From Candidatus Bathyarchaeota archaeon (lineage in GTDB: Archaea; Thermoproteota; Bathyarchaeia; Bathyarchaeales; DTEX01): a stretch of DNA of 64,000 nt. The DNA lies in the NCBI GenBank assembly GCA_025059045.1, contig JANXEA010000008.1, forward strand, positions 62,001 through 126,000, in the 5' to 3' direction. The notes under the pieces were generated by a model. It saw only the letters and a list, made by a program, of their open reading frames with translations. It made no database searches and was not told where the DNA came from. This document shows positions 22,077 to 25,788 of this stretch, piece after piece. Each line of letters starts with the position of its first letter. Position 1 is the first letter of the stretch. A program made the position numbers and the translations under genes.

Positions 22077-23168
22077 CTAAAGGACTTCTGCGTTAGCCAA
22101 TATTTTTTCATTAATCTCAACACCGAGCCCCGGTTCATCCGGCACTTCCATGTAACCGTCAACTATGGGCACAGGATTTTTAAGCAGTTTATCGCCTACG
22201 CGATGGTCAATATTATATATTTTTGGTAGTATCGGCAGCATGGTGTGGAAGCAACAAAGTGTAGTGTTGCAATGGTGCCTAGGGGTTGGGTTTGATGGGG
22301 CGTGCATACGCAGCCAAAGGCCTCGGCTAGAGCTGCAATCTTCTTACATGCCGAGAAGCCCCAGCCTTAATCAGATCAGGCTGAACAATGTCAACCGCTT
22401 CCTTTTCAAGCATTTCTTTGAATCTGTAGATGCTCCAGTCCTGTTCACCCCCGGCTACTGGAACATCTAAGGCCTTAGCCACCTTCGCTGTTGAATCAAT
22501 GTCGTAGTAAGGGCAGGGTTCTTCGAAGTGAAATATATCATATTTTTCCATCTTCCTTCCCAGCTGGATTGCTTTGGGCGCCGCGAAGCCTCCATTAGCA
22601 TCGACCATTATCTCGATCTCATCACCTAGTTTTTCCCGGACCTCCCTAACAACAGATTCGCTTCGGCCCGGCGCGGCATCTTTATCAAAGCCGAAGGGGT
22701 TGCCGACCTTAACCTTAACGGCTTTAAATCCTTTCTCCTCAACCACCCTCATCAGCCTCTCTGCTTCTTCCTCAGGCGTTGTATCTCTCCTCATACTGGA
22801 AGCATACATGGGGATTTTTTACGGTACGCGCCACCTAGAAGCTTATAGACAGGTACGCCGAGGGCCTTGCCGATTATGTCCCAAAGAGCTATCTCTATGC
22901 CGCTAATAGCAATGGCCTGACTTTGACCTGCGATCTTATAGGTTTTTATGAAAATCCGCTCCATGAGAGATTCTATATCGAATGGGTCACAGCCCATTAT
23001 AAACGGAACTAGAGAATGTCTGACGTGAGCCGCTATAACCTGAGTATTCATTGTGCTGCATTCGCCCCATCCGGCGATCCCCGCATCGGCATCTACGCGT
23101 AGAAGTAAGCTATTCGGTTTAACCAGATAACATCTAACATCAAAACTATTTTTAAGCAAAACACCCAC
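22077..23168 (-). pseudogene. Broken mandelate racemase/muconate lactonizing enzyme family dehydratase
   Basis: Enolase-superfamily acid-sugar dehydratase in four pieces. The N-terminal capping domain runs from 23168 to the T6 run at 22815-22820. One added base there joins GGAYRKK to IPMYASSMRR and the barrel, with VKVKVGNPFG, MVDANGG and HFEEPCPYYD. A second lesion lies at the C4 run 22359-22362; correcting it gives KAGGFSACKKIAALAEAFG and CTPHQTQPLG. A third, at the T5 run 22220-22224, leads to the ending YNIDHRVGDKLLKNPVPI. Repaired, the protein is about 365 residues, normal for the family. All three lesions look like loss of one base in a homopolymer, so either pseudogene decay or sequence error is possible. 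Confidence 0.83.
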
Positions 23169-23489: not shown

Positions 23490-24530
23490 TTATTCGCCTT
23501 TTGTTTTTGAACGCCAAAGTTTTGGATAGGTACCTCTAGGCATTATGACCCTCTCATTCTTTGCGGCTATTCCATGATCCATCTTCATGATTTCTTCACT
23601 GCTTGCCACAGCCGTGCCCAACGCTACTACCTCACCTTTCAAAGTAAAAATGGCAACTTTGCTTCCGGATAGTATGCCGTCCTCTAATGAGACAATACCC
23701 GGGGCCGCTAAATGTGCACCGTGGCATAAAGCGTCGACCGCCGAGTCTCTCACGATTATCTTAGGCAGGAGCGCCAAGGCGGTTTCCATAGGTAGTATAA
23801 AGCTCCTTAACGCTTTTTCGTCCCCCTCTTCTTTCCACTTGCTATAAAGGTAGTAAACGTCGTGAAGTGTCACGTTATGTTCATCCTCGGTGAAGGGACC
23901 GGATCTTGTCCGCCTTAGTTCTAGCATGTGGGCCCCACAGCCCAGCACGTCTCCTATGTCATGGCAGAGTTTACGTATGTATGTTCCGGCCTCGCATCCA
24001 ACCTTAAATAGGACATTTCTGCCATCAATCTCCAAGGTTTCAATATAGTATATTCTCCTAACTCTAACCCTTCTTTTCACAGAGGCGCGGACAGGAGGCT
24101 TCTGAAATATTTTACCCTGGAATTCCTCGAGAACATTTTTCACCCGTTCTTCAGGAATGTCTGAGTGAAGTCTCATCACGCAAACGTATTCTTTTCCAGA
24201 GACTAATAGGGCTTGGATTACTTTGGTCGCTTCCTCTAAGGCTATAGGCAGGACGCCAGTCACCTTGGGATATCCTTAGCCTCTAACCATATTAGAGGCT
24301 TCTAAGGTCCCGCCGTGACCAGCATGCCTAACAGACAGGATTCGTCTCACCCAAGCTGTCACTTCATGGCTTGATGGACCAGCTGGTTTGTCAAGATTCA
24401 CTATTCCAAACCTTATGAAGTCCGATGCAGGCCTCTCACAAGGTTTGCATCCATAGTTTGGATCGGTCTCAGCCTCCGACTTAATCAGAGTCTCACGCCT
24501 AACCATCCATGGCGCAACAATCTTTGTCAT
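23490..24530 (-). CDS. cbf5: Cbf5, tRNA/rRNA pseudouridine synthase (gene interrupted by an intron)
   Basis: Catalytic subunit of archaeal H/ACA ribonucleoproteins, also modifying tRNA U55. Exon 1 (24302-24530) encodes 76 residues plus one base, ending GHGGTL; exon 2 is 23490-24271. After removing 30 nt the join reads GHGGTLDPKVTGVLP, restoring the TruB-family motif with catalytic Asp77. The spliced protein is 336 residues, a normal length. Exon 2 carries the family phrases FKVGCEAGTYIRKLCHDIG, GCGAHMLELRRTRSGPF and a C-terminal PUA domain (DSAVDALCHGAHLAAPGI). Without splicing the frame stops within the intron. It lies between eL14 upstream and tRNA-Ser downstream, all on the minus strand. 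Confidence 0.95.
24272..24301 (-). other. 30-nt archaeal intron in cbf5 with bulge-helix-bulge motif
   Basis: On the transcript strand the junctions fold as a canonical bulge-helix-bulge. The outer helix is GGGA with TCCC, the central 4-bp helix CCTT with AAGG, the two 3-nt bulges are AGA and ATA, and the inner helix is AGCCTCTAA with TTAGAGGCT closed by a TATGG loop. Cutting after the second base of each bulge and ligating gives TTA GAT CCC, that is Leu-Asp-Pro, restoring the catalytic motif. The intron length is a multiple of three but holds an in-frame TAA. Introns in cbf5 are known from Crenarchaeota. Confidence 0.93.
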
Positions 24531-24580: not shown

Positions 24581-24841
24581 CTATTTTGGGCTAGAATATC
24601 CGCTAAGCTTGGCAAGAGCCTCTGTTACTTCTTCGTCCGTTGCACCTCTTTTTATTTCAATCTTCTCTTCCATTGGTCTAAGGTGATTTATGTTCACTCT
24701 TCGACGTCTAACCCCAGTTAATGATTTTGGACCAGTTATAAGGGCAAAATTCTTGTCAATTAAGTCAACTATCACGCATTTTTTCCCGGCTTCTCTGCCT
24801 CTCAACTTCACGCATATCCTACCGACTTCAATCGCGGGCAA
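24581..24841 (-). CDS. rpl14e: Ribosomal protein eL14 (L14e)
   Basis: Large-subunit ribosomal protein of archaea and eukaryotes. The KOW-type N-terminus IEVGRICVKLRGREAGKKCV is clear, followed by NFALITGPKSLTGVRRRRVN and NHLRPMEEKIEI. The 86-residue length is typical of archaeal L14e. It precedes cbf5 by 50 nt on the same strand, an arrangement seen in many archaea, and is probably co-transcribed with it. Confidence 0.95.
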   Translation of the reverse strand: MPAIEVGRICVKLRGREAGKKCVIVDLIDKNFALITGPKSLTGVRRRRVNINHLRPMEEKIEIKRGATDEEVTEALAKLSGYSSPK

Positions 24842-24889: not shown

Positions 24890-25738
24890 TTAAGGATTTA
24901 TCCTTGAGGGCTTCTCCATTAGCTTACGCTTTTCTCCCATAGACCCATCTTTAAGGTGAGGCCTTCTTAGGACATGATCACCCATCTTCTCAATCTCTCT
25001 AGCCTCATCAGCCACCCTTGCAGCATACCTCATGATCTCATGAGCCTCGGCAACCATGGGAATATACACATTCGCATCGGTTATCCTAAAACATGCATCC
25101 GTCGTGATCTTCGAAACTTGCGCAGCTAATTCGTATGCCGCTTTTGCCTTCGCCCTTGCATAGGGGTTCAAGAACCCAGCGGCTTCGACGGCTGTTTCAG
25201 AATCAAGTATGACCCTTGGCATACTCGGTTTCTGTCCAGACCTTAACTGTTTAATCATCTCATCTATAACTTTCACTATCGCATTGACCACGCCAGTTAC
25301 AGCCAGAACTTTCAGTACATCCGAGTTAAATATCACCATCTCGGCAGGATCAAGAAACTCTCTTCGAGCACCAATCATAGAATCCGCCTCCACAATGATA
25401 TAACCCATACCATACTCCTCCAATTCTTTTACGAGCTTTTTAGCCGGGCTATCTGATATTATAATAGTTGGAAGCCCAGCGGTTTTGAGCACTTTACGTG
25501 CCTCTGAGGGTCCAGGGGTAGTTTGCCCTGGACCTACGAGAATAACCACGTCAGGGCTAATTTTGAGCATGAATTCGGCGGCTTCTCTACATTGGTCCAC
25601 TCCGAGTTTCGCACCTGCCCCGACAACCCTCACATCAATATCCATCCTATCAGCTCTCTCGTCCAATATGAACTCAAGCAATGGCAAAATGCCTAAGCAT
25701 CCTACCTTTAGTATGCCGATCTTAACAACATTACCCAT
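24890..25738 (-). CDS. mtd: F420-dependent methylene-tetrahydromethanopterin dehydrogenase
   Basis: Reversibly oxidises methylene-H4MPT to methenyl-H4MPT with coenzyme F420, a step of the archaeal Wood-Ljungdahl and methanogenic C1 pathway. Family phrases are strong: VKIGILKVGCLGILPLLEF at the start, VVGAGAKLGVDQC, LVGPGQTTPGPSEARK and the C-terminal DANVYIPMVAEAHEIMRYAA. The frame opens ten codons earlier, but the GAGGTG ribosome binding site sits 7 nt before the ATG at 25738, so that start is preferred (282 residues). It is followed downstream by eL14 and preceded by a Gfo/Idh/MocA gene. It is a marker of an H4MPT-using archaeon. Confidence 0.95.
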   Translation of the reverse strand: MGNVVKIGILKVGCLGILPLLEFILDERADRMDIDVRVVGAGAKLGVDQCREAAEFMLKISPDVVILVGPGQTTPGPSEARKVLKTAGLPTIIISDSPAKKLVKELEEYGMGYIIVEADSMIGARREFLDPAEMVIFNSDVLKVLAVTGVVNAIVKVIDEMIKQLRSGQKPSMPRVILDSETAVEAAGFLNPYARAKAKAAYELAAQVSKITTDACFRITDANVYIPMVAEAHEIMRYAARVADEAREIEKMGDHVLRRPHLKDGSMGEKRKLMEKPSRINP

Positions 25739-25788
25739 TTGATACACCTCTGACTTTTCAAGGCACATACTAAATAGGATAAAATTTA

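Follow-up and report, generated by a model that had tools for sequence, protein, structure and literature searches.

The cbf5 gene of Candidatus Bathyarchaeota archaeon occupies positions 24530-23490, on the minus strand, of the window (the whole 64-kb stretch of DNA that was analysed) and contains a 30-nt interruption at 24301-24272. It is the only cbf5 copy in a genome of 1.42 Mb, 98% complete and available as a draft in 27 contigs. Two open reading frames on the minus strand, 24530-24276 and 24263-23490, make up the gene, and they share one frame (24530-24263 = 267 = 89 x 3). The initial annotation had placed cbf5 in two frames, which is wrong: an insert of 30 nt, divisible by three, leaves the frame unchanged, and the gene is broken by a TAA that lies in frame at 24278-24276; a programmed frameshift is thereby ruled out. 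The features, from the upstream neighbour to the end of the gene, are as follows.

24581-24841, minus strand: L14e-like KOW protein, upstream neighbour of cbf5
24302-24530, minus strand: cbf5 exon 1, from Met1 to the Leu before the catalytic Asp, plus the first base (G) of the Asp codon
24308-24311, minus strand: outer helix of the bulge-helix-bulge (BHB), 5' strand GGGA, comprising the Gly codon and the first base of the Thr codon
24304-24307, minus strand: central 4-bp helix of the BHB, 5' strand CCTT, in exon 1 (from fold and covariation)
24301-24303, minus strand: bulge 1, AGA, with the predicted cut between 24302 and 24301
24272-24301, minus strand: BHB intron of 30 nt, with the unspliced reading GAA GCC TCT AAT ATG GTT AGA GGC TAA GGA TAT
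24278-24300, minus strand: inner 9-bp stem AGCCTCTAA/TTAGAGGCT with loop TATGG (from the fold)
24276-24278, minus strand: in-frame TAA inside the intron, which ends the first open reading frame
24274-24277, minus strand: central helix, 3' strand AAGG, in the intron (from fold and covariation)
24271-24273, minus strand: bulge 2, ATA, with the predicted cut between 24272 and 24271
24267-24270, minus strand: outer helix, 3' strand TCCC, in exon 2 (from the fold)
23490-24271, minus strand: cbf5 exon 2, from the last two bases of the Asp codon through PKVTG to the stop codon

The fragment encoded by exon 1 matches the CBF5 models up to model position 70 / 67, and the match restarts in the exon 2 fragment at position 74 / 71. 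Excision of 24301-24272 yields TTA-GAT-CCC-AAG, or Leu-Asp-Pro-Lys, and the spliced protein is a full Cbf5 equivalog (NF003280, 475 bits against a cut-off of 242; TIGR00425, 470 bits) with the domains TruB_N, TruB_C_2, PUA and DKCLD. It aligns with the solved archaeal Cbf5 2aus with no gap across the junction. The intron directly follows the first base of the catalytic Asp codon (G^AT), and the predicted cuts fall between bulge bases 2 and 3. RNAfold gave the same BHB as both MFE and centroid structure, with one extra pair in the inner stem, at -26.2 kcal/mol compared with -15.1 +/- 2.95 for shuffled sequences (z = -3.8; none of 200 shuffles reached this value). In the 64-kb window the exon-intron-exon pattern has a single match, with 0 expected. 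An Rfam scan of the window returned no match at gathering thresholds, and a homing rRNA-type intron with a LAGLIDADG endonuclease could be ruled out, as 30 nt is too small for such a reading frame. Apart from its two frames, the anatomy drawn in the initial annotation was confirmed in its coordinates, in the exon ends GHGGTL and PKVTG, in the helices, bulges and inner stem, and in the restoration of Leu-Asp-Pro by a cut after the second bulge base.

The usual archaeal context of cbf5 is beside L14e; the profile of the upstream neighbour shows KOW only, and its L14e likeness comes from reading the sequence. Two genes from cbf5 is an F420-dependent methylenetetrahydromethanopterin dehydrogenase (Mtd, 367 bits; 24890-25768, minus strand). 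On the other side, a mandelate racemase/enolase-superfamily gene (22077-23168, minus strand) is split into three open reading frames (MR_MLE_N; MR_MLE_C 3-138; MR_MLE_C 158-218). No BHB was seen by eye in this broken gene, which is either decaying or affected by indel errors.

Introns at the same site in other archaea

The spliced protein served as query against 61 genomes and subsequently against 171 genomes from the phylum and 167 from an Asgard phylum, and a large share of the matches break exactly at residue 77. Junctions were read in 206 distinct genes, 143 of which carry an insert of 13-41 nt at G^AY of the catalytic Asp codon, the other 63 being clean. The site is occupied in most relatives of the order, to which B26-1, B26-2, AD8-1 and Bathyarchaeum tardum belong together with the source genome; the remaining relatives have a clean GAC or GAT. 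Introns at the same site are also found in Methanomethylicota, in other Thermoproteota families and in three Asgard groups including Jordarchaeia. Besides Jordarchaeia, the intron-bearing Asgard groups are L207/L261/L264 and L262/L265, and most Asgard cbf5 genes are continuous. A pattern scan of 84,980 species, which undercounts because the pattern demands GGGAC and PKVTG, gave further matches in Sulfolobales, Desulfurococcales, Methanomethylicota and Jordarchaeia/Freyarchaeota, and no euryarchaeal or DPANN titles were among its matches. Four bacterial matches (Desulfohalobiaceae, Asanoa, Lachnospiraceae, Dactylosporangium) were attributed to chance, with no Cbf5 around them. On a FastTree phylogeny of 204 proteins the intron state changes at least 16 times, and since the deep branches are weakly supported we claim neither a single origin nor a direction of change.

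Published cbf5 introns, from Desulfurococcales and Sulfolobales, separate the first letter of the catalytic Asp codon from the second, as established with spliced cDNA, measure 16-44 nt and are cut between bulge bases 2 and 3 (PMC2738675). The crenarchaeal intron (Watanabe 2002; Yokobori 2009) thus shares gene, site, cut position and length range with the one described here; the host in our case is a bathyarchaeon, and splicing, proven by cDNA there, is predicted here. Two expectations of the initial annotation need revision in this light: with 30 nt the intron is mid-range rather than very short, and its position at the catalytic Asp codon, itself correct, is not a peculiarity but the standard cbf5 intron site. 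A third, that these introns are known mainly from Crenarchaeota, holds for the published cases, which Yokobori 2009 reported in Desulfurococcales and Sulfolobales only (PMC2738675), but not for the same-site introns of Bathyarchaeota, Methanomethylicota and Asgard archaea.

Several individual genes deserve mention. One Cbf5 of the same order (L053 203-2566, genome G027) combines a 22-nt BHB intron at the Asp codon with a LAGLIDADG intein after GTYIRKLC (Pfam Intein_splicing, 80 bits; LAGLIDADG_3, 58 bits). Introns of 13-14 nt, below the published minimum of 16, occur in L240, L244, L248 and L249, and the RNA fold of the L240 intron is without an inner stem. The cbf5 gene of L051 (genome G016, of the window's family) clusters with family f20, which belongs to another class, and shares that group's PAVSG and intron sequence; judging by this likeness, it probably belongs to a contaminating contig. 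No cbf5 was found in G002, G004, G007, G008, G020, G028, G051 and G054 despite 90-97% completeness, which reflects either assembly gaps or the true absence of a core gene.

Conserved pairing and in-frame stops

Covariation was analysed in 87 intron-bearing genes that had not been chosen by DNA pattern, in comparison with 63 intronless genes, and P values are without tree correction. Pairing between the Thr codon's third base and its partner in the intron holds in 87/87 genes (73 CG, 10 TA, 3 AT, 1 TG), compared with a mean of 72.8 and a maximum of 79 in shuffles, and the first base of the Leu codon is paired in 80/87 (shuffles, maximum 78). Synonymous choice around the site also differs between the two sets, again without tree correction: the Gly codon is GGG in 68/87 intron-bearing and 12/63 intronless genes (P 6e-13), the Leu codon ends in A in 81/87 and 20/63, the Pro codon ends in C or T in 73/87 and 27/63, and an outer exon-exon helix GGUCAC/GUG is favoured (28/82 and 2/60). 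On this comparison of genes, the central helix of the intron covaries with synonymous exon sites and the BHB structure is under selection.

A second regularity concerns introns whose length is a multiple of three (3n). These are 31 of 140 distinct introns, representing 28 separate clades on the tree, and all 31 contain a frame-0 stop, compared with 6/31 and 8/31 for stops in the other two frames and with a mean of 10.8 and a maximum of 17 in 2000 shuffles, about a third being expected (Fisher P = 4e-7). In phylogenetically independent pairs, a mean of 7.1 were for the stop rule and 0 against it, with a median P of 0.016, which is only moderately strong. Two 3n introns encountered later (G100 and G190) both carry TAG, so that overall 33/33 distinct 3n introns have an in-frame stop, with all three kinds of stop at differing codons. 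From these sequences we infer that unspliced mRNA would never be allowed to give full-length protein, and the pattern suggests a selected rule in which 3n introns carry a stop and introns of other lengths shift the frame. It is also possible, although we consider it rather unlikely, that the stops are a by-product of shared motifs, such as GAG GCT TAA in Bathyarchaeota, and of A/T-rich loops. Frame-0 stops are indeed present in 59/109 non-3n introns, more than in the other frames, and the median P after tree correction is no lower than 0.016; a by-product is nevertheless hard to reconcile with 31/31 introns and 2/2 later ones, with three kinds of stop at varied codons in 28 separate clades, or with the near-identical introns of G100 and G190, which place their TAG at different codons.

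Proposed splicing of the cbf5 mRNA and its possible meaning

The introns of archaeal tRNA and rRNA form a BHB that is recognised by EndA, and the exons are joined by RtcB; in cbf5, by comparison, coding bases form part of the BHB, and splicing would yield an mRNA. RtcB is present in the genome as a single gene and EndA as two. The Tyr, His and Lys motifs (DFVVY, DHAP, VKKRF), which we take to be the catalytic residues after the Methanocaldococcus enzyme, are retained in one EndA, which corresponds to EndA alpha; the second is without the His, as expected for a structural subunit, and corresponds to EndA beta. The two probably form an alpha2beta2 enzyme. EndA gene number was rejected as a predictor of the intron, as two are present in nearly every tested genome from TACK and Asgard archaea that has no intron; the EndA pair thus permits the intron and does not discriminate. 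In three intron-bearing Thermoproteota genomes (G219-G221; loci L084, L103, L116) two EndA domains are present in one frame of 403-409 aa, that is, as a fused endonuclease.

Together, the restored Cbf5, the published site, the covariation in relatives and the EndA and RtcB genes support the initial reading, and we consider it almost certain that 24301-24272 is a BHB intron of the sole cbf5 gene that would be removed by EndA and RtcB. The predicted fold of the pre-mRNA is a relaxed BHB built from exon and intron bases. By analogy with the crenarchaeal case, EndA alpha and beta would cut each 3-nt bulge behind its second base, and RtcB would join the exons to form the GAT codon of the catalytic Asp. 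An unspliced mRNA would halt at the intron TAA and give an 84-residue fragment without the active site. With other lengths shifting the frame and 3n introns carrying a stop, full-length enzyme would come from spliced mRNA only. That cbf5 is a pseudogene, or carries a 30-nt insertion that is not spliced, is very improbable: its reading frame is broken by a stop and the enolase-superfamily neighbour at 22077-23168 is genuinely disrupted across several frames, but cbf5 is the sole copy of a core gene, both exons are otherwise intact, and about 140 distinct genes carry a BHB insert at the same site with varying sequence and conserved pairing. Still less credible is recoding of the TAA, by which the 30-nt in-frame insert would yield a continuous Cbf5 with an 11-residue stretch replacing the Asp; this stretch reads EASNMVRG-stop-GY, so that the catalytic Asp is missing, and the inserts of most relatives are 3n+1 or 3n+2, which readthrough could not serve. 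An assembly or sequencing error, which the 27-contig draft and the frameshifts in the neighbouring gene might suggest, can be dismissed with similar assurance, given a perfect BHB at the published site that is matched in independent assemblies of many relatives.

For the BHB intron itself, our tentative and rather doubtful proposal is that one intron older than the split between Thermoproteota and Asgard archaea has been kept at the catalytic codon as an obligate splicing gate with selected in-frame stops. The reason for the stops may be, we conjecture, that a Cbf5 translated in full but carrying an insert at the active site would still be incorporated into H/ACA RNPs and poison them. A like rule of stop-containing 3n introns has been described in ciliates, where the introns are spliceosomal and NMD is involved (PMC5014332). 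The cbf5 case concerns one archaeal gene and splicing by protein enzymes, and NMD is not known in archaea. An alternative is a role of the intron in regulating expression, which Watanabe, Yokobori and colleagues suggested for the crenarchaeal introns (PMC2738675). According to Yokobori et al., some cbf5 introns keep the frame, and a word search of their main text found no discussion of in-frame stops in 3n introns (PMC2738675). As late as 2020, Crenarchaeota were still named as the hosts of the cbf5 intron, and in the open-licence literature we found no papers on cbf5 introns and Asgard archaea and, for Bathyarchaeota, only one that merely lists TACK members. As far as that literature shows, neither the wider distribution nor the stop rule has been described before; we do not claim priority.

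With Bathyarchaeota, Methanomethylicota and several Asgard groups all carrying an intron at this one base, the question of its age arises anew: it may be old and have been lost many times, or it may have been gained repeatedly. In many archaeal genomes cbf5 has probably been annotated as broken by mistake. The stop pattern, for its part, would be testable evidence that failures of mRNA splicing in archaea are frequent enough for counter-selection.
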